In this document: positions 13,180 through 24,299 of the stretch, one piece after another
How the letters are laid out: the number at the start of each line of letters is the position of its first letter
Position numbering within the stretch: position 1 is the stretch's first letter
Source: a virus
Virus record (IMG/VR): IMGVR_UViG_3300028298_000030
Span: 1 to 25,895 of that record
DNA: 25,895 bases
Direction: 5' to 3' (one strand)
The notes under the pieces: model-generated
What the model was told of the DNA's origin: nothing
The model's input: the letters and a program-made list of their open reading frames with translations, nothing else
The model's database searches: none
Made by a program: the position numbers and the translations under genes

Positions 13180-14007
13180 TTATTTCTTCAAAAAGCGGGG
13201 CGCGAGAGCGCATCTGCATTGGATAATCTGTGCTGCAGGTGCCCCCAGGCTTGAATCGGCGGGATACATCATTTTACAGGCTGGCACCCGGGTGTTCTTC
13301 GATGCCATGAAGGCCGGCACCTCGAACGCTTCATCGACATCAATCACGACACCTTTCATGGCAAGATGCGACGGGCGGGTACGGTGATCCCCGGTAGTAG
13401 GCAGCCACTCTTTAAAGGGTGCGTAATCCTTCGTCCTACTCCAGGCCGCTTCGTTGTAAGATTGCGTACTAACCGTGCGGGCGATTGCCTCTGCTCTGAC
13501 AGCCCCGATGCCGTTGTAGTGCTGCTGGATGATCTCGGAGAACTTCGTGATACCAGCGCCTTTTTTGTCCGCTTCTACGATATCCCGGATGATCTTCTTG
13601 TTCATCTCGCCTGTGAACCCTTTGAGATCCGAGAGTGAAACTGCGGACAGGTTGGCGATGGCTCGTTCATCGGGGCGGGTGAAATTCAGGCCGATATCGA
13701 CAACTCTGTGCTGAGGGCGGGTCTGCGCAACAAGAGTCTGGTGCGTGTTGTCGATACCGCGCCGGTAAGCCTGCAGGACATACTGCTGGATAAGTCTGCG
13801 GCCCGGCTGGTCGATGTATGCGATATTGAGGATCTCCAGCAGCCGTATGAGTTCCCCGATATCGAGCTGCTGCAGCCGGAGCATCGGACGGAGCTCTTCG
13901 AGAGCCTTTGCCCGGGCGTTCCGGATCAGGGCGAGAAACTCGCGGGTGAAGATGTTGCGCACGGGACCGGAGGGATCGGATACTCGCACCGGAGATTTCT
14001 CCCTCAC
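13180..14007 (-). CDS. MuF-like minor head protein (SPP1 gp7 family)
   Basis: 275 residues from GTG 14005-14007, which overlaps the preceding stop as GTGA. The first ~130 residues are helical. The C-terminal half has the MuF signature: RAEAIARTVSTQSYNEAAWS, then KEWLPTTGDHRTRPSHLAM, then PACKMMYPADSSLGAP and IIQCRCALAP. Conserved residues are the TGDHRTRPSH loop, the M.YP.D.S pattern and the CRC near the end. MuF proteins sit at the portal vertex and help in head assembly and in genome injection. It is usually found right behind the portal. Here about 4 kb of accessory genes separate the two. Confidence 0.85.
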   Translation of the reverse strand: MREKSPVRVSDPSGPVRNIFTREFLALIRNARAKALEELRPMLRLQQLDIGELIRLLEILNIAYIDQPGRRLIQQYVLQAYRRGIDNTHQTLVAQTRPQHRVVDIGLNFTRPDERAIANLSAVSLSDLKGFTGEMNKKIIRDIVEADKKGAGITKFSEIIQQHYNGIGAVRAEAIARTVSTQSYNEAAWSRTKDYAPFKEWLPTTGDHRTRPSHLAMKGVVIDVDEAFEVPAFMASKNTRVPACKMMYPADSSLGAPAAQIIQCRCALAPRFLKK

Positions 14008-14285
14008 TTCAATGAATTATTTAAGTCTGTTGCTTTTGCCCAGTCCAGAATTTCGACCGAGATAGAATCCAGATACTTTCGGATCTCATCTCGTGTATTA
14101 AACTTTTTCGGGAGAATCCATAAGATAATACGTTCTGAGTAGTTCCAGGATGTTGAGATTCTCTCAGAGATTTGTTCATCCTTCTGCGCCTGCTGAGCAA
14201 TATTCCAGCGGACAAGAAGACGGGCACGACCGTCATCAATCCTGTCCAAAAATATTTCATCCGGTTTTGAGTTCGAATTTGGCAT
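14004..14285 (-). CDS. 93-residue hypothetical protein before the MuF-like gene
   Basis: Starts ATG 14283-14285 behind a GAGGT ribosome site; the stop overlaps the next GTG. The protein is mainly helical and charged, with DRIDDGRARLLVRWNIAQQA and KKFNTRDEIRKYLDSISVEI. A TATA-like AGTATATC lies about 31-38 nt upstream. It may be a small head-assembly or regulatory protein because of its coupling to MuF, but no family is recognised. Confidence 0.6.
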   Translation of the reverse strand: MPNSNSKPDEIFLDRIDDGRARLLVRWNIAQQAQKDEQISERISTSWNYSERIILWILPKKFNTRDEIRKYLDSISVEILDWAKATDLNNSLK

Positions 14286-14315
14286 TTACGCTACCTCTTT
14301 TAATAATAACGGACG

Positions 14316-14323
14316 GATATACT
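14316..14323 (-). promoter_or_regulatory. TATA-like box before the MuF operon
   Basis: AGTATATC on the minus strand, preceded by a purine-rich GAGAGAA, lies 31-38 nt upstream of ATG 14285. The 128-nt gap between the HNH gene and this gene is otherwise empty. It could restart transcription after the accessory insert. Confidence 0.4.
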
Positions 14324-14413
14324 TTCTCTCAAGTCGATACGAATTACACCAGGATAACCACCCGTAATAACTGGCAATGACATTTCTATCTTGTGGGGGG
14401 TCAAACCGTGACA

Positions 14414-15016
14414 TTACGGCACTCCTTTTCCAGCGAAAAACGACGGGTCTAATTCATACCCCTCCGGGCATGGTTCAAATTTTTTGTCAGATAAAAACCC
14501 CAATCCCCCGGTTTTTGATTTGTAAAAGTAGGGGGCGGTTTCTGCCATATCTAACGCACGACTGATCTTCCTTGTCAGCCACGCCCATCGTTTACCGTTT
14601 TTAATATCATTGATGGTTCTGACGGGGATATTACGATTCCTGCTAATCTGTGAACAGTTCAGGGTTTTAAGGTCTCTCACAATTCCAATAATCATTAATT
14701 GGGTGAGTTTATTATTTCCATTTCTCTCACCAAACGCCTTAACGGTACGTCCTTTTTTTGACATATCTTGCATGTTGTCTTTCGGAGTTCCTAAAAAGAG
14801 ATGCGCGGAATTAATACACATATGATTGTCACAGGTATGACACACCAACACCCCGGCAGGAATATCACCGTATAGTTGTGAATGGATGTACCGGGCGACA
14901 GTCCATTTCTTACCGGATTTCATTAATGTTGGGTATCCCCCGGTGTTCGGTGCATGAGAAGTACAGATATGACAACCATTCTCATTCACTTCAAAGGTTA
15001 TCGGGCGGGTTTTCAT
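14414..15016 (-). CDS. HNH homing-type endonuclease (HNH_3-like)
   Basis: 200 residues from ATG 15014-15016. This start overlaps the stop of the zinc-ribbon frame as ATGA and has a GGTGA just upstream. Residues about 1-50 hold a zinc-finger-like start (CHIC) and GGYPTLMKSGKKWTVARYIH. The HNH_3 core follows: VCHTCDNHMCINSAHLFLGT then PKDNMQDMSKKGR. A C-terminal helix-turn-helix (LNCSQISRNRNIPVRTINDI) is typical of homing enzymes that recognise long sites. The gene is more A/T-rich than the structural genes around it and stands alone behind the fibre gene, as expected of an intruding homing nuclease. It is not inside an intron or intein that I can see. Confidence 0.8.
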   Translation of the reverse strand: MKTRPITFEVNENGCHICTSHAPNTGGYPTLMKSGKKWTVARYIHSQLYGDIPAGVLVCHTCDNHMCINSAHLFLGTPKDNMQDMSKKGRTVKAFGERNGNNKLTQLMIIGIVRDLKTLNCSQISRNRNIPVRTINDIKNGKRWAWLTRKISRALDMAETAPYFYKSKTGGLGFLSDKKFEPCPEGYELDPSFFAGKGVP

Positions 15017-15132
15017 TTCTTTTTCACCCGTCTTTCGGTATCCCAATAAGGAGAATGACATTTCGGACAAATTTTTGGGTGTTTGTCTCCGCGCTGTGCC
15101 CACTCGTGCTTGCATCTGTTGCATTTGTGTAA
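15013..15132 (-). CDS. Zinc-ribbon microprotein frame without a standard start codon
   Basis: The frame just after the fibre's two stops (TAA-TAA) reads LHKCNRCKHEWAQRGDKHPK, then ICPKCHSPYWDTERRVKKK and a TGA. The TGA overlaps the HNH start as ATGA. The CxxC...CPKCxSPYWD pattern is that of a widespread small archaeal/bacterial zinc-ribbon family. In that family the usual start is M-[HFY]-K-C directly before the first Cys. Here a TTA stands where ATG is expected, and no ATG, GTG or TTG occurs between the stop and the first Cys. Either it is a decayed gene, or its start was overwritten when the end of the fibre changed. The preserved Cys residues and the coupled overlap argue for recent function. 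Confidence 0.5.
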   Translation of the reverse strand, partial: LHKCNRCKHEWAQRGDKHPKICPKCHSPYWDTERRVKKK

Positions 15133-15135
15133 TTA

Positions 15136-16842
15136 TTATCGGTATTCGAGCCGCGAGCCAACATACCGATAGACACATGACGCCGCACTATCCAGATCCC
15201 AAGCGAAAGCGCCCGCATTACCCGCACTACGCCAATCGCCGCCCAGCAGGGCCGAGCGATTTCCGGTTGCCTGATAATAATAATCACAGAGATATTGGCT
15301 GCTGGACCCTCCTACGGTCAATGGCACGAAGAGATAATCGAATGTTGAAGAGAAGACAATCGAGACCCCATAGTTATTTGTTGAAGGTAATGTGAATCCA
15401 GTATCCACATAGGGATGTGCGAAGGTATCTTCAACAAAATCATGGTCTGCAATCCAAGGATTCCTATTGGCTTTGATGTTGATGCCGGCAATCCATTTCC
15501 AGATATTTCCCCAGAAATTCTCAATCCCAAAGATGCTGAATGCCTTTGCTGCTTCTCCGGTCTTGTAGTGCGTAACCAAGGGGCATTCTCCGGAGGTGTT
15601 ACCGAGGTCCACCCCGTTGGTGCCGACCCCTGCCGTAAATCCTGTGTTTATGGCGTTGTTGAACGTTGATCCCGCTGTTGCATCGGTGACTACTGTCACT
15701 CCTGCATAGACCGACTGTGAGTTCAGCGTAGCGTTCCGGATAATGAAAAGCAACTGGACGGCACAGACCGAGTTGAAGTCCATGAAGTTCCAGCCGGTCC
15801 CCCGGTTCTTTGCGAGCTGCCGGATGTTCGGCAATGTTGCCGTTGCATTGTTCCAGCCGCTTAACGGCTTTACACCGGCGATTGAGCAGAGGAGATCTCC
15901 GGTCGTTGCGGTGAAATCCAAGCCACCTGCATCGTTCAGAACGTATCCCCCCGTTCCCGGCGTGGTCTTGGCAATGGTGCATGTCACCCCACATGCAGTG
16001 GGCATAATGACGGTGGTTTTCAGCCCGGTAACGCTGGATGTGTAGGTGAGTTTATCTGCCCCCGTTTTTGCCGGCGTCCATACCGTTTCCTGATAATCGG
16101 TTTTCGCACCTGCTGCCACGATCTTGTCAACAACACCTTCGACGGTATCATCATCGAGGATAGCCACGGTGAAGATATAATTCCCACCGAGGGTAATTGT
16201 CAGATTCCCGGACGATGTTGGTTCTGCCGTTACCGTGATTGTATTGACTTCCGTTGCTGTTGCAGTGACGTCGTTTGCCGATCCTTCAAAGGCCGAAACG
16301 TAGATGTAATCCTTTTCGACCGTGTCCACGACGAATGCCGGGTGGACTTTGTAGCCCGTTCGCGCCACCGGGTATATCGTGAACCGATATTTGTTCGAGA
16401 GTGCATCAACCTTGTAGTAAAATTTCGGGATACGGACCATTACCTGCCCGTTCGAACCGGTGTAGGAGAATAATGGATCTCCATAAAAGGCGGTCACCAC
16501 TCCCGCATTGGAGAGGTTGCATCGTCTGATAGCCCCGAATACTGCATGACTCGCCCAGTCCCCGGCAGACATCGTGATGGCCGCACCAAACTGGTTTACC
16601 AGAGTCAAAGTCGGGCTGGTGGAATCTGTCGCCCACTCAACACCGATCGGTAAATCGAGGGGTGAATAGGGCAAGTCCCCCCATTTTAAACCCGGTGTGA
16701 CCGAACTGTCAGCAATTAAGACCTGTCCGTTCGTTCCGACAGGCAATCTTGTAGCTGAATCCGCCCCAACCCCTGCCGGGAGATCTCCTTTTGCATCCCA
16801 GAGAGGATCGGTCGCAAGCGATCGTGACCTGATGTTGGTCAT
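15136..16842 (-). CDS. C-type-lectin-fold fibre / receptor-binding protein, retroelement-type target
   Basis: 568 residues from ATG 16840-16842 (a TTG two codons upstream is possible). The N-terminus has the fibre repeat pattern WDAKGDLPAGVGADSATRLP, VGTNGQVLIADSS. The middle and end match the formylglycine-enzyme-like / C-type-lectin fold seen in Mtd-like fibres: MVRIPKFYYKVDA, YIYVSAFEGSANDV, FWGNIWKWIAGINI, NPWIADHDF and DYLFVPLTVGGSSS. The last 50 residues (LCDYYYQATGNRSALLGGDW, then FAWDLDSAASCVYRYVGSRL) match the variable end of diversity-generating retroelement targets. An extra domain of about 100 residues (about 200-300) interrupts the fold. It probably binds host or surface ligands. 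Its place among head genes suggests a head fibre as an alternative to a tail fibre. Confidence 0.75.
   Translation of the reverse strand: MTNIRSRSLATDPLWDAKGDLPAGVGADSATRLPVGTNGQVLIADSSVTPGLKWGDLPYSPLDLPIGVEWATDSTSPTLTLVNQFGAAITMSAGDWASHAVFGAIRRCNLSNAGVVTAFYGDPLFSYTGSNGQVMVRIPKFYYKVDALSNKYRFTIYPVARTGYKVHPAFVVDTVEKDYIYVSAFEGSANDVTATATEVNTITVTAEPTSSGNLTITLGGNYIFTVAILDDDTVEGVVDKIVAAGAKTDYQETVWTPAKTGADKLTYTSSVTGLKTTVIMPTACGVTCTIAKTTPGTGGYVLNDAGGLDFTATTGDLLCSIAGVKPLSGWNNATATLPNIRQLAKNRGTGWNFMDFNSVCAVQLLFIIRNATLNSQSVYAGVTVVTDATAGSTFNNAINTGFTAGVGTNGVDLGNTSGECPLVTHYKTGEAAKAFSIFGIENFWGNIWKWIAGINIKANRNPWIADHDFVEDTFAHPYVDTGFTLPSTNNYGVSIVFSSTFDYLFVPLTVGGSSSQYLCDYYYQATGNRSALLGGDWRSAGNAGAFAWDLDSAASCVYRYVGSRLEYR
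15137..15171. repeat. Inverted repeat at the fibre gene 3' end
   Basis: TATCGGTAT (15137-15145) and ATACCGATA (15163-15171) are perfect complements separated by 17 nt, which itself contains GAGCCGCGAGCC. The hairpin covers the last codons and part of the stop codon. A hairpin right after the variable region is needed for target recognition in the Bordetella phage retroelement (established knowledge), where it lies downstream of the gene end. A role here is inference. Confidence 0.4.
15139..15294 (-). other. Variable-region-like 3' end of the fibre gene
   Basis: Of the last 52 codons, about 21 end in T: TAT, GAT, AGT, AAT, CGT, GCT, GGT, TGT and GTT. The gene otherwise favours C or G there in many places. 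Such codons can arise from AAT templates by substitution of the A positions, as in diversity-generating retroelements. Variable positions would be the YYY triplet, GDWRS, FAWDLDS and CVYRYV. No template repeat was found by eye in this window. Confidence 0.5.
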
Positions 16843-16844
16843 GA

Positions 16845-17243
16845 TCAATACCCCAGGTATTTGCAGTCGATTGTTGCTGCCGTTCCCCCGGTTTCACTCA
16901 CGAAGGTCAGACGGATATACCCCACTGCAGTTTCCGGGACGGTGAAGATATACGTGTCGTTTGCCGTGATCGTTGTGTCAAGGTTCGATATATCGAGGTT
17001 TGCCCAGACGGAATTATCCGGGCTACCCTCAACACGAACGACTACGGTTGTGTTGATAGCCGCCACGGTGACAAACATCGAATGGTTAATCCGTTCACTT
17101 GTGGCAAACCCGGTCGTGCTGCCCGGTGCCGTAAGTTGCGTGAAGGTATTCGCAAGCGAGTAACCAGTTGTTGATACCGGTAATCGGTTTGTCACGGACA
17201 CTTCACTCCCATCAGTAGTTACGAGTTTTACTGTTCCTGCCAT
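16845..17243 (-). CDS. Beta-rich structural protein before the fibre gene
   Basis: 132 residues from ATG 17241-17243 with a GAGG ribosome site. It begins MAGTVKLVTTDGSEVSVTNR and is dominated by Thr, Val and Ser with alternating strands (FVTVAAINTTVVVRVEGSPD, YIFTVPETAVGYIRLTFVSE), as in a small jelly-roll or Ig-like module. It ends close to the fibre start. It may be a fibre attachment or collar protein that works with the fibre (inference). No membrane segment or Cys motif is seen. No recognised family. Confidence 0.55.
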   Translation of the reverse strand: MAGTVKLVTTDGSEVSVTNRLPVSTTGYSLANTFTQLTAPGSTTGFATSERINHSMFVTVAAINTTVVVRVEGSPDNSVWANLDISNLDTTITANDTYIFTVPETAVGYIRLTFVSETGGTAATIDCKYLGY

Positions 17244-17882: not shown

Positions 17883-18277
17883 CAGATCATCCCCTTCTTT
17901 TTCATTTTACTGTAATATTTTGAGTCTTCGTCAAGCTGGTCCTTGGCGATCTTGCTGGCGATCGCGGGATTGTCAGTATGCTCCGCCTCGGTTTTGATGC
18001 CCAGGGCCAGCTCTACCGGGTCGTAATCGCTATCCGGGCGGGAGTCTGTGCCTTCCATTACCAGAGTGGCTTTCTGGGCTTGCGTGGTTCTTTCCTTGAA
18101 TTGGATGCCATGATCTCCCAGGAACGAGGAGGTGTGCTTATTCTTACCGTTCCAGATTGTAGACGGAATTTTATCATATGCTTTGCATTGGTGATCGGGC
18201 CCACTAATTAGGTTTGCACATCGGGCACAAACCGGGCTGTAAATTACTTTTTTTAATTCTGAATCATCCAAAATCAT
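17882..18277 (-). CDS. Zinc-finger protein coupled to the portal gene
   Basis: 131 residues, with the start ATG overlapping the portal stop as ATGA. The N-terminal half has CARCANLISGPDHQCKAYDK followed by IPSTIWNGKNKHTSSFLGDH and GIQF, a pattern (C..C ... C.A[FY]...IP..I..G...H.....D.GI.F) that recurs in small proteins next to portal genes in tailed viruses. The C-terminal half is a charged helical tail (IASKIAKDQLDEDSKYYSKM, then KKKG). It may be a portal or maturation accessory protein. The Cys/His residues suggest zinc or iron-sulfur binding. No exact function. Confidence 0.6.
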   Translation of the reverse strand: MILDDSELKKVIYSPVCARCANLISGPDHQCKAYDKIPSTIWNGKNKHTSSFLGDHGIQFKERTTQAQKATLVMEGTDSRPDSDYDPVELALGIKTEAEHTDNPAIASKIAKDQLDEDSKYYSKMKKKGMI

Positions 18278-20538
18278 AATTCCTCCCTATGATATAAAAT
18301 TCCGGTTTCCTGCGCTACACGAGACCAGATTTCGTGCCAATGGTTAAGACTGGCCTCTTCCGGTGTTATTTTTCCATTAAAGATTTTATCCCAGTTCTCG
18401 CCTTCTACTTCTTTCATCTTATTATTTATGATAGGAAGTATTGTCTCCTGATCTATCCATCCATTTCCCCGATCTAGAATATGCAAATATTTTGAGCTCA
18501 CGCAACGTATTTGGGCAAGATCTATTTTCATAGCCATGAAATAATCTGCCGGCGAGAATGATCCGCCGGAGGGGTGGTTGTGTGTAAAATATCCATCTTT
18601 CAATGATTTAATTTCATCTTCGGTAAATTCAATGGAATCGATATTTCCCCCCTTTATAAGGATCGTTTCCCCATCTTTATCAAAAACCTTTGCACTTTCA
18701 GTTTTATTATTTTTTATATATGGTTCATAAGTTTTGAATCGTGCCGTTACTTTATCTGGTGTCGGAATTTCGGGTTTTACCGGGGTTTTCCCCGCATCAC
18801 CTGCCGGTTTGCTCTCTTCCTGCTTCCCGCTCTGTTCTCCCGGCTTATCCCCGAATTGTCCGTCATCAGCTCTCGGGTGCTCACTCTCCTTGAAGTCAGC
18901 CTTGCCAAACGGGTTCTTCTTCTGCCCGTCGTCCTCCGGCTCCCCGGAATCGCTGCGGGCCTGCCCGGAGTATCCCTCGGAGTGCGGTTTGCCACCCTGG
19001 TCGGGCTGGTTGCCAGTGTTACCTGCATCTCCCGCGAGCTCCTGCGTGATATCAGCCTGCTTGAGGTTCTGTAAGGCTGTCTCCATGCTCTGGTTATCCT
19101 GTTGCGAGACCCGGTCAACGGCTTCGGTGACAGCCTTGATGTGATCTTCATCCACCTTGGCCATCCGCATAGCCTCTTCCAGCGGGACTCCTGCGTTAAT
19201 CCATTTCGAGACCACATCGGCCCGGCCCTGCTCAACCTGGATCTCCTTGAGCAGGTCGTCGAGCTCGACGATGGGTTTGAACCGGAACTCCCAGTCGGCC
19301 TGGTAGCCATCGAGCTCCGGGAGGATCTCGGTATTGATGACAGTCTCAAGATGCCTGAGAATCGGGGCCAGCATCTTGCTCTTGGTGATGTTCTGATTGA
19401 TGTATGCCGTGGCGCGGTTGGCGTCCCCGGAAGTGAACTCCGACTCGCTGAAACCGAACATGGCCCAGATGATAGAGGAGATGAACTTCTGCCCCTCCAG
19501 CCACTGCATGTGCATGAGCTCGGGGAATACGGTACTGATCTCTTCCTGTCCGAGCAGGTGGAGGATGTTACCGAAATTCTCGGGGCCTTTGTTCTCCAGC
19601 TCGACCTCCATATTGCGCTCTTCGAGCTGCTCGATGCTGGATAAATCGGGATGCTTCCAGACGAGCGAGGGGCCGATGCCGTTAGCAAAGGTCATTCCTG
19701 CGGCCTTGGTGCTGTCGATCATGTATTCGAGCTGCCATTTGAGCTGCTGGATGAAGTCCGTGCCGTAGATGCTGTCCGCACGCTTATACATCATGATCAT
19801 GCACACGTCTGTCGGTGCAAAGGGGATGTAGACGCCGGGCCGGCTGTGCTGCCAGTATCGCTTCACGTACCCATGCGACCAGGGGCCGAAGTAGTTGAGG
19901 CCGTATTGCCCCATGACATTGCCGAACTGGTTGTCCACCTCGATCCAGAACTCGGGGCCGCTGTATGCCTTGAGCTCCAGCAGATTGCCCGCGATGCTCC
20001 GGACCTTGACCCATGCGGCCTGATCGTATCGGAGGATATCGGGAATGGTCTGCTTGATGAGCGTCTGGAAGGTATCCTGTGGGTTGGGCCGCTTAAGGAA
20101 TTTCTCGGCGAATTCTACCGGCACCTTGTTGTTATTGGTGACTTCCCACTCAGCGGTCTCGATGGTGTCCATGATGCGCTTCTCGCAGACTGCGTAAATG
20201 GCGTTCCGGGCGAGCCGGTCGTTATCGGATTTCCAGAAATTTGCACGGGGAATGCCGAAGATATTGAGATACGAGTTGACGCTGTAGATGGCCCGTCGCA
20301 TGGGGTCGTTATTGAGCTGCCTGGCCCGGTATTCGAGCGCCTCGACCTCGTCCTGTTCGGTCATGTAGTATCGCTTGGAGCTCTGCGATACCATGTTGGT
20401 GGCTTTCTGCAGGGTGCGGGTCCGCATGGCCAGCCGTTCCGATGTGACCAGTTCTTCATAGGAGGGGGCTCGCAAGACCCGGAGAGCGGAACGGTACCCG
20501 ACCGTGGCGGCTTTTGTTATTTTGTGGAGTAGACTCAT
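18274..20538 (-). CDS. Portal protein with C-terminal JAMM/MPN-like domain
   Basis: 754 residues. The first ~490 are a portal protein: wing and stem regions (RRAIYSVNSYLNIFGIPRAN, MMYKRADSIYGTDFIQQLKW), the typical FGFSESEFTSGDANRATAYI segment and TEILPELDGY. Residues about 500-596 are a Pro/Glu/Gly/Lys-rich linker. Residues about 597-754 read as a JAMM/MPN metalloprotease: SAKVFDKDGETILIKGGNI, then the motif THNHPSGGSFSPAD, giving His653, His655, Ser662 and Asp665 (H-x-H-x6-S-x2-D, one residue shorter than the usual x7). The DNA of the domain (about 18.28-18.73 kb) is visibly more A/T-rich than the portal body. The portal forms the dodecameric genome gate; a protease fused to it is unusual. 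Confidence 0.85.
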   Translation of the reverse strand: MSLLHKITKAATVGYRSALRVLRAPSYEELVTSERLAMRTRTLQKATNMVSQSSKRYYMTEQDEVEALEYRARQLNNDPMRRAIYSVNSYLNIFGIPRANFWKSDNDRLARNAIYAVCEKRIMDTIETAEWEVTNNNKVPVEFAEKFLKRPNPQDTFQTLIKQTIPDILRYDQAAWVKVRSIAGNLLELKAYSGPEFWIEVDNQFGNVMGQYGLNYFGPWSHGYVKRYWQHSRPGVYIPFAPTDVCMIMMYKRADSIYGTDFIQQLKWQLEYMIDSTKAAGMTFANGIGPSLVWKHPDLSSIEQLEERNMEVELENKGPENFGNILHLLGQEEISTVFPELMHMQWLEGQKFISSIIWAMFGFSESEFTSGDANRATAYINQNITKSKMLAPILRHLETVINTEILPELDGYQADWEFRFKPIVELDDLLKEIQVEQGRADVVSKWINAGVPLEEAMRMAKVDEDHIKAVTEAVDRVSQQDNQSMETALQNLKQADITQELAGDAGNTGNQPDQGGKPHSEGYSGQARSDSGEPEDDGQKKNPFGKADFKESEHPRADDGQFGDKPGEQSGKQEESKPAGDAGKTPVKPEIPTPDKVTARFKTYEPYIKNNKTESAKVFDKDGETILIKGGNIDSIEFTEDEIKSLKDGYFTHNHPSGGSFSPADYFMAMKIDLAQIRCVSSKYLHILDRGNGWIDQETILPIINNKMKEVEGENWDKIFNGKITPEEASLNHWHEIWSRVAQETGILYHREEL

Positions 20539-22295: not shown

Positions 22296-22804
22296 AAACT
22301 CTCTGCGATGATATCACCAATCTTGCGGGCGGCCTCGGGTGACAGAGAGGGAATGAGTGGGGTAGACCCGGTCTTAATTTCACCGGCGTGCTCGACATCG
22401 TGCTTATCCCTCCAGTCCTTCGACTGCCGGTTCTTGAGCCAGAAGATCTGAGCGGTCACATCCGGGGCGACCTGCTTGACTGTGTTCTGCGTTATTTGGC
22501 TTCCATCCGGGTTTTCGGTGACCCGTTTTTCCGTATATTCATACCCACAGGCACGCTGGTACAGCGAGGCCACAACCTTACTATCCGCCTGATCCTTGCA
22601 CTCTTTTATGGCTCCGGCAAATTCGGGATATTCCTTTCTCCACCGGATCAGGGTGTCTTCATCCACCCCGAGTGCCTTGGCAATCTCTGGACCGGTTTTA
22701 CCCATAAGTGCGAGATCACCCGCTTTTTTCGGGTGTATTTCGGGATTATACAGGGACGGGCGGCCTCGTTTCTTCTTCTTTTCAGGCGGCAATTTCTTTG
22801 TCAT
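22292..22804 (-). CDS. Terminase small subunit
   Basis: 170 residues. A basic N-terminus (EKKKKRGRPSLYNPEI), then a helix-turn-helix (AGDLALMGKTGPEIAKALGV, DEDTLIRWRKEYPEF) of the terminase small-subunit type. An oligomerisation region follows, then KQVAPDVTAQIFWLKNRQSK with DWRDKHDVEH. This 'p.~~a~~~wLkNr..~~WrdK' ending is frequent in small subunits of this family. It recognises viral DNA and recruits the large subunit. The ribosome site GGGGGGT lies directly upstream, inside the end of the HNH gene. Confidence 0.85.
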   Translation of the reverse strand: MTKKLPPEKKKKRGRPSLYNPEIHPKKAGDLALMGKTGPEIAKALGVDEDTLIRWRKEYPEFAGAIKECKDQADSKVVASLYQRACGYEYTEKRVTENPDGSQITQNTVKQVAPDVTAQIFWLKNRQSKDWRDKHDVEHAGEIKTGSTPLIPSLSPEAARKIGDIIAESL

Positions 22805-23219
22805 AATTACCCCCCTTTATCGGCAATTTATTACTTTTACTTGAATTACAAACTTTGTGAGCCGGAACAAGATTATCCAAATCCTGTGTACCCCCCTTTG
22901 AAATCGGTATAACGTGGTCTATACTAAAATCGGTGTAGTGAATCTGTTTTCCACAAATATGACAAGTAAAACCTTTTCTTTCTACGACTTCCAACCGCAT
23001 TTTGATATTGTCATAATTTGCTTTGGATCGTTTGCGCTTTTTTATCGTTCCATTTTTGATGTCTTCCTTAATTTTTCTCGGTTCAATTACGCGATAATAA
23101 TAATTAATCAATTTTATTTTTTGTTTTGTCTCTTGTTTCTCCATTCTATCGGCCAGATTAAGCCAATATATTTTTTCTTCGGTGGGAAGAATGTCAAACC
23201 AAGGTAAGCCTATATCCAT
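22782..23219 (-). CDS. HNH endonuclease upstream of the terminase
   Basis: 145 residues from ATG 23217-23219 after a GGTGA ribosome site; a GTG one codon upstream is possible. It has a basic helical N-terminal half (RKIKEDIKNGTIKKRKRSKA). A classical HNH/McrA-like core follows: CHICGKQIHYTDFSIDHVIP, then ISKGGTQDLDNLVPAHKVCN and SSKSNK. The DNA is A/T-rich compared with the terminase. HNH proteins beside the small terminase are needed for cos packaging in HK97-type viruses (established knowledge). The A/T-rich composition also fits a homing nuclease. The location and length make a packaging role slightly more likely. Confidence 0.8.
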   Translation of the reverse strand: MDIGLPWFDILPTEEKIYWLNLADRMEKQETKQKIKLINYYYRVIEPRKIKEDIKNGTIKKRKRSKANYDNIKMRLEVVERKGFTCHICGKQIHYTDFSIDHVIPISKGGTQDLDNLVPAHKVCNSSKSNKLPIKGGNYDKEIAA

Positions 23220-23578
23220 CACTCACCTTTCATCATTTTATCATCTATTTCCCCACCAACAAAGGCACAACCAGGAGGATGATAGTAATCACCCCACCCG
23301 AAAATACGGCATGGTTCTGGTCTATCCTCTTCATGGATTGAACATTTACCATCCTTTAATTTTATGCAGGGGTTGTAGGTAAAAATGACATTTCCTTTGA
23401 GTTCGGTTCCTGCATGAAGGAGAGTGAATTTCATATCCTCTTCATCAAGGGTATCTGCCCGTAACCAAAACCCCTCACAGCATTTCCCACACTGTTTACA
23501 ATCTGGGATAAAACGCCCCTGCTCGAAATGACCCTGATTAAGAGGAAATTCGAGACAGTGCAAGAAAGGCCGATTCAT
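23219..23578 (-). CDS. YkgJ-type zinc/iron-chelating domain protein, second of a tandem pair
   Basis: 119 residues from ATG 23576-23578 (ATGA overlap with the previous gene). The domain has CKQCGKCCEGFWLRADTLDE, followed by FTYNPCIKLKDGKCSIHEED and RPEPCRIFGW. This is the YkgJ family pattern 'C..CG.CC......C..l....CsIye.RP..Cr.f'. The family binds zinc or iron-sulfur centres in bacteria and archaea and also occurs in viruses. The paralogue is the upstream neighbour. Its job in a virus is not known. Confidence 0.8.
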   Translation of the reverse strand: MNRPFLHCLEFPLNQGHFEQGRFIPDCKQCGKCCEGFWLRADTLDEEDMKFTLLHAGTELKGNVIFTYNPCIKLKDGKCSIHEEDRPEPCRIFGWGDYYHPPGCAFVGGEIDDKMMKGE

Positions 23579-23874
23579 TCCTTCACCACATACCCGCATC
23601 CATTCGGCTTGTAAAAGGCACCGAAACCATGGTACCGGGCACAGGTCAATGGATACTCTGAAGTGTCGTGAATGTTGCAGCTCGTGGGGAACTCCTGCCC
23701 TGGTGATTCATCAAGATGCTGACAGGTATGAGGGATAAGGAGGTGGTCCTGCTTTTTATCCTCTACACATCCGTGAGCTATCAACCATTCCCGGGTCTCT
23801 GGTGCCAGGTTCCGTGATATCACAGCAATGACGCGACAACAAGCTCCGCATCGGACGCATTCACCCATAGACAT
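23575..23874 (-). CDS. YkgJ-type Cys-cluster protein, first of a tandem pair
   Basis: 99 residues from ATG 23872-23874 (TGATG overlap with the previous gene). The domain begins at once with CVRCGACCRVIAVISRNLAP. It continues with IPHTCQHLDESPGQEFPTSC, NIHDTSEYPLTCARYHGFGA and a C-terminal YKPNGCGYVV. It is the same family as the downstream gene, but divergent. The coupled pair suggests a heteromeric or redundant metal-binding unit. Cys residues match the CxxCxxCC core. Confidence 0.75.
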   Translation of the reverse strand: MSMGECVRCGACCRVIAVISRNLAPETREWLIAHGCVEDKKQDHLLIPHTCQHLDESPGQEFPTSCNIHDTSEYPLTCARYHGFGAFYKPNGCGYVVKE

Positions 23875-24299
23875 CACACCTTGTTCTCATCGAGTTTGTG
23901 ATCTCCGCACCAGTCATCTTCAAAGACAACCGGATATCCATTCATCGTTGGAGCGTGGCGACGGCAACGGCCAAGTTTTTTGTGACCGTAGGTCTCCATC
24001 GATTGATATTCTCGTGGATTTGGGTCTTTCATTACGCAAAACATACATGTCCGGCACTGCATTCCTGCACTTCGGTGCTTCCATGGATCGGAATTGCCGG
24101 TATAACTTTTCGCGGAAAGTCGCTCATGTAAATTCTGCCAGCAGATAACCGCTTCGTTCAATTCCACTGGAGCAAGTTTCTGATGATACCTTCCGGGGTA
24201 AACTTCGATTGATGAAATCAACAATTCGTCGAATGAGATAATCTGTCCATTATTCGTGTGTATAGTGATTTTAATTGCTTCTCTTCCTGTTTCGTTCAT
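23874..24299 (-). CDS. Zinc-binding protein with CxxC and RCRRHAP motif
   Basis: 141 residues from ATG 24297-24299 (ATGA overlap with the previous gene). The N-terminal ~75 residues look like a small alpha/beta domain (ITIHTNNGQIISFDELLISS). The C-terminal ~60 have CRTCMFCVMKDPN and LGRCRRHAPTMNGYPVVFED then DWCGDH. This 'C..C...C....G.CRRHAP......~~Pv~..ddWCG.~' motif is frequent in small virus and archaeal proteins and is probably a zinc finger. It is coupled to the YkgJ pair, forming a run of three Cys-rich genes. The molecular role is unknown. Confidence 0.7.
   Translation of the reverse strand: MNETGREAIKITIHTNNGQIISFDELLISSIEVYPGRYHQKLAPVELNEAVICWQNLHERLSAKSYTGNSDPWKHRSAGMQCRTCMFCVMKDPNPREYQSMETYGHKKLGRCRRHAPTMNGYPVVFEDDWCGDHKLDENKV

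Follow-up and report, generated by a model that had tools for sequence, protein, structure and literature searches.

An HNH endonuclease gene in place of template repeat and reverse transcriptase: a viral DGR target whose retroelement was very probably destroyed in place

A gene for a phage tail or fibre protein in the stretch of DNA analysed here (the window, a linear virus record of 25,895 bases) is very probably the target of a diversity-generating retroelement (DGR) that was destroyed in place. The target is intact, its variable region (VR) is mutagenised, and the reverse transcriptase (RT) is missing at the site where relatives have it, as in an orphaned DGR target. In-place destruction is preferred because a stub of RT remains at the syntenic position beside an adenine-biased VR, with neither template repeat (TR) nor RT elsewhere in the contig, and because homology to the related locus L002 stops at the end of the target and resumes in RT, while the nearest relative of the target, L001, has TR and RT intact. 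It is further preferred because of two parallel cases, L013, with an HNH gene of another family, and L058, where the same RT tail is left but nothing has been inserted. The record is a genome fragment, so the absences of TR and RT given below cover these 25.9 kb.

The target frame extends over positions 15136-16848 of the minus strand (570 aa) and starts at TTG, with the first ATG at 16842, which confirms the gene location given in an earlier, sequence-only reading of this DNA. The protein belongs to a tail protein family (PHROG 5302, E 1e-72), and its relatives have TR and RT directly downstream; Pfam and NCBIfam gave no useful match to it. All of the motifs that had been noticed as a C-type-lectin pattern (YYYQATGNR, GGDW, FAWDLD and VGSRL) are located at its C-terminus, where the VR comprises codons 532-567 (15148-15255, minus strand). 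When the VR was compared with the TR of L002 over 108 nt, mismatches were found at 23 of 32 adenines and at 8 of 76 other bases (p 5e-10), and over 80 nt at 17 of 26 adenines and 3 of 54 other positions (p = 2e-8). The TRs of L001, L003 and L005 gave the same adenine-biased picture. Upstream of the VR no such bias was seen in the target gene relative to L002 (16 of 72 adenines and 51 of 204 other bases mismatched). Adenine-biased variation among related genomes had been named beforehand as a test, and the proposed AAT-type template also exists, as real TRs in those four relatives: each of the 11 AAT codons in the L002 TR appears as NNT in the window (GAT, CGT, AGT, AAT, GCT, GAT, GAT, AGT, TGT, TAT and TAT). 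Judged from these alignments, in which the template adenines are those of the relatives' TRs only, the target ends in a genuine DGR VR, made by the same kind of machine as the VRs of its relatives. In IMG/VR, a degenerate VR pattern found only L002, and the left-junction pattern, in a search that may omit near-identical records, found nothing, so that no second allele of the window lineage was seen.

Scanning IMG/VR with the target protein yielded 30 loci. In the five nearest of these (74–83% protein identity) a TR (about 100 nt) and an RT gene of 334–335 aa come directly after the target, in this order; all five RTs contain the GNYLSQ motif, and that of L003 matches Pfam RVT_1. Differences between TR and VR that are restricted to adenines are the diagnostic pattern of mutagenic retrohoming. 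The best TR showed at most two non-adenine mismatches to its VR in 20 of the 30 loci (none in 17), with 8–24 adenines differing. Moreover, in the RT-positive loci L056, L057, L060 and L065 the flanks are 99.3–99.7% identical and the VRs only 85–90% in five of six pairs, and because these VRs diverge while their flanks stay near-identical, sequence comparison indicates that mutagenic retrohoming is active in the family. In L003 (11412-11680) and L004 (2868-3140), five of the mismatches between TR and VR fall outside adenines, and two samples share an identical VR; perhaps this is a DGR that is no longer active although its RT is intact.

On the minus strand, the window begins with a transglutaminase-like gene, two cysteine-cluster genes, an HNH gene, the small and large terminase genes and the portal gene (18274-20538), followed by small genes including a DUF6385 gene. 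Then come the DGR target, a further HNH gene, a small gene, the MuF gene (13180-14007), a gene that we read as protease-like, an SU10-type capsid protein gene and further structural genes. The target thus lies between portal and MuF, as had been reported. The suspicion that a head-module position is an oddity was rejected, since in the RT-positive L005 the order is portal, DUF6385-like gene, target, TR, RT, small gene and protease, and this arrangement is normal for the lineage. The two cysteine-cluster genes adjoin the packaging genes (23219-23599 and 23575-23877, minus strand), both carry a CxxCxxCC pattern (zinc- or iron-chelating; the second slightly below the Pfam cut-off) and probably represent a duplication. 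The HNH gene that adjoins the small terminase gene (22782-23222, minus strand) matches Pfam HNH with E 1.3e-14. The portal has a long additional C-terminal part of about 200 residues with THNHPSGGSFSPAD, similar to the JAMM/RadC metal-binding motif, and this part has no Pfam match. With the MuF protein as query, no relatives were found.

Homology to L002 continues to about the target stop codon and restarts within the RT gene at position 8599 of L002, and 741 window bases, with junctions near 15135 and 14395, stand in place of about 1.2 kb. The part missing relative to the relatives extends from about the target stop to about RT codon 298, that is, the TR and ~89% of RT. The last ~35 RT codons and the stop codon remain at 14286-14394 of the minus strand (QDRNVIASYYGWLSWCNSYRLERKYIRPLLLKEVA, read from 14394 to 14286). 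This stub is 74% identical to the end of the L002 RT over 34 aa (85% in DNA over 79 nt), matches the L003 RT with E 5.6e-8, and aligns with positions 305-333 of a profile built from the RTs of 16 relatives (35 bits). Its frame is still open, from an ATG at 14414 (42 aa). Immediately 3' of the stub lies the small gene (14004-14285, minus strand), as it does after RT in L001, L002, L003 and L005 (38–51% identity in those four loci); homology is claimed for these four only, because a profile comparison with the small genes of distant relatives gave no significant link.

No TR was detected on either strand of the 25.9 kb in a search with template adenines as wildcards, and no complete RT, as RVT_1 gave no match and the RT profile matched the stub only. 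Because neither a TR in the same genome nor a DGR-type RT gene was found in these 25.9 kb, the locus is not a complete DGR. The sequence-only reading had seen neither template nor RT and had proposed a template-repeat search with mismatches on A and an RT-profile search of the flanks; the first agreed with it, and the second bore it out for a complete RT and matched only the C-terminal stub that it had overlooked. Likewise, its description of the target as an orphan is well supported as far as separation from the retroelement goes, although the gene standing in place of TR and RT had escaped it. This gene (14414-15016, minus strand, with the frame open as far as 15178) encodes an HNH endonuclease of about 200 aa, with an HNH catalytic domain recognised by Pfam HNH_3 just above the cut-off (E 1.5e-5) and by PHROG HNH families, down to E 2e-22; PHROG endonuclease families match with E 1e-22 to 1e-23. 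Used as a query, its product found only distant relatives, of 32–51% identity. Its stop codon overlaps the ATG that opens the stub frame. Directly after the target stop lies a fragment without start codon (15016-15132, minus strand, LHKCNRCKHEWAQRGDKHPKICPKCHSPYWDTERRVKKK), which from its cysteine pairs we read as zinc-ribbon-like; no copy of it was present among the other loci compared. The G+C content of the insert is 43.7%, against 53.1% for the window, which is not exceptional, with 7% of windows equally low.

Loss of RT has happened repeatedly in the family. A full RT is present in 56 of 75 non-redundant loci and a frame-broken one in L027; 14 loci have none, and four were left out as undecidable, being cut by the contig end (L038, L043, L057 and L088; the RT match of L043 stops at the contig end). 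RT is thus absent from 14 of 71 decidable members, a fraction that, like that of the second set below, is only indicative, the sets being best hits of queries and non-random. In a quick tree of the target without its VR, from which no direction of change was inferred, 11 changes of RT state are needed, of which well-supported branches make at least 9 unavoidable, and the window is sister to the RT-positive L001. We take these changes as losses because stubs and TR remnants remain. Compared with RT-positive sisters, TR and RT are both lost in L011, L022 and L026; two further losses begin near the TR start, that in L058, where there is no insert, ending at the RT tail that the window has also retained, and that in L069 ending slightly beyond RT; and L019 and L093 have lost the RT body but not the TR. 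An HNH gene of another family (phrog_3377) is flanked in L013 by what is left of the TR and by the final RT codons. The deletion or insert starts within the first few tens of TR bases in L013 (6638-6720), L058 (4065-4180) and L069 (911-1005). Besides the TR, only the first 19 RT residues are left in L019 (4628-5050, which contains N's) and L093 (4780-5240).

In most RT-less VRs an adenine bias towards the TR of some relative persists; the VR of L014, for instance, differs from the TR of its sister L018 at 20 of 27 adenines and at none of 53 other bases. The VR of the RT-less L095 has no adenine signature (15 of 25 adenines and 23 of 55 other bases, p 0.1), which is what an old loss would be expected to leave. 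RT-less sister pairs are uninformative on freezing, as near-identical pairs are 100% identical and the remaining pairs may be separate losses. A second set, which consists of more distant loci and overlaps in part with the first, contains 39 loci with RT, 18 without and two listed as partial, of which L171 has a truncated RT and L189 a match of 10 bits, too weak to count. In this set, L119 (61% identity to the window) has a small gene directly after the target. A further relative is L114, the Methanosarcina virus MetMV, whose complete 67.8-kb genome carries an RT-less member of the target family at 43200-44768, with AZF89919.1 as its product; the C-terminus of this relative is also present in the IMG/VR locus L154. 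L001 encodes a clamp-loader-like ATPase that we read as archaeal, Pfam giving AAA-type families only. From this ATPase and from the reach of the family to a Methanosarcina virus, an archaeal host of the window virus is our guess.

The main competing explanation is continued diversification of the VR in trans, with TR and RT supplied from another part of the viral genome, by a co-infecting virus or by the host. The contig is incomplete and the VR is intact and in frame, both compatible with such action, and L019 and L093, where a TR without RT body would make sense if RT were supplied in trans, are possible candidates for it. However, relatives have TR and RT in cis directly after the target, with one RT per record, and RT was absent from the whole records of the RT-less loci searched, among them that of MetMV, a complete genome, and others of 36–54 kb. 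The exception is L040, outside the 14 RT-less loci, a bacterial genome bin with an RT on another contig. A retroelement acting at a distance, which the sequence-only reading had allowed for, therefore found no positive evidence, and we consider it improbable. Its other proposal, that the variation is now frozen, is favoured over action at a distance because of the truncated RT tail at the syntenic position, which makes the window VR probably frozen. Still less credible is that the target was captured by recombination from a DGR virus, so that this locus never had a retroelement of its own and the VR bias was inherited from the donor. The surroundings of the cassette do vary (before a tail gene in L003, in the head module in L005), and the nearest target is that of L001, yet the nearest RT tail and TR are those of L002. 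Against capture, an RT tail followed by the small gene, in the right position, implies that the cassette was once whole here or arrived whole. A mis-join of a DGR-bearing locus with a foreign HNH gene during assembly is very improbable. This is a metagenome contig, and an IMG/VR search for the left-junction pattern, where near-identical records may be omitted, found no second contig with it; but such an error would take two false joins, one on either side of the insert and both inside a single syntenic locus. Both flanks come from that locus, the frames are intact, and L013, an independent contig, has the same kind of replacement.

Under in-place destruction, the most likely course is that an ancestor diversified its tip by a DGR, that the TR-RT module was then lost in place, and that the tip has since been passed on like any other gene. 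Once TR and RT were gone, the VR would have dropped out of mutagenic retrohoming and would form one fixed, C-type-lectin-like binding tip. The loss may have occurred through repair of an HNH-promoted break with co-conversion of the flanks, or through a deletion that the HNH gene then filled. As two HNH genes of different families occupy the same position (in the window and in L013), the evidence suggests that the site is attractive to endonucleases or that RT is dispensable there. Retention of the RT tail may be due to its position beside the next gene, whose ribosome-binding site it perhaps carries. Tentatively, and with more doubt than confidence, TR-RT loss could be a recurrent, selected lock-in, in which a tip is diversified, the mutator is shed and one tip is fixed, with homing endonucleases as one evicting agent.

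Searches for DGRs usually begin from RT, and for this reason their loss is little documented. Here, viruses that have the module can be compared directly with related ones that lack it, with sharp breakpoints, two replacements by endonuclease genes, a graded series of loss from the VR of L014 (no non-adenine change against its sister's TR) to that of L095 (no signature), and a testable case in the complete genome of a named virus, MetMV. Whether and when a virus gains by switching its mutator off therefore becomes a testable matter. A DGR-type tip without RT should be treated as possibly fixed rather than hypervariable.

As in the known viral DGRs (Bordetella phage BPP-1 type; archaeal virus ANMV-1, PMC4372165), the VR of the window is C-terminal and differs from the relatives' TRs on adenines, and in those relatives TR and RT lie directly downstream; unlike in them, the TR of the window is gone, only the last ~35 RT codons remain, and an HNH gene is found instead. 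The best PDB match of the family profile is TaqVP, the DGR variable protein of Thermus aquaticus (5VF4, PMC6328139); the match is weak (E 0.0019), and its second matched stretch covers the terminal GGDW...GAR, the VR of TaqVP. An AlphaFold2 model of the C-terminal domain of the window protein was too poor to use for the fold (mean pLDDT 36) and was discarded. The predicted HNH endonuclease resembles the free-standing homing endonucleases seg and mob of T4 (PMC2988022) in that its gene lies between two phage genes, probably in the same transcript as its neighbours; unlike these, it occupies the site of a functional module instead of adding to intergenic space. No viral DGR reduced to an RT stub and no endonuclease in the place of RT was found in a literature search outside which most subscription journals fell. 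What is known already are DGRs themselves and an RT-less remnant variable protein in Nostoc PCC 7120, all3226, which has remnant TR-VR homology and no RT nearby and for which the authors suggested that selection of a good variant may be followed by removal of the parts that serve diversification (PMC7517822). The window shares with all3226 a variable protein and the absence of RT nearby. However, all3226 belongs to a cyanobacterial chromosome with dispersed paralogues, whereas the family described here is one of viruses, in which the same locus occurs with and without the module, a stub of RT can still be recognised beside an endonuclease insert, and losses have taken place separately many times.
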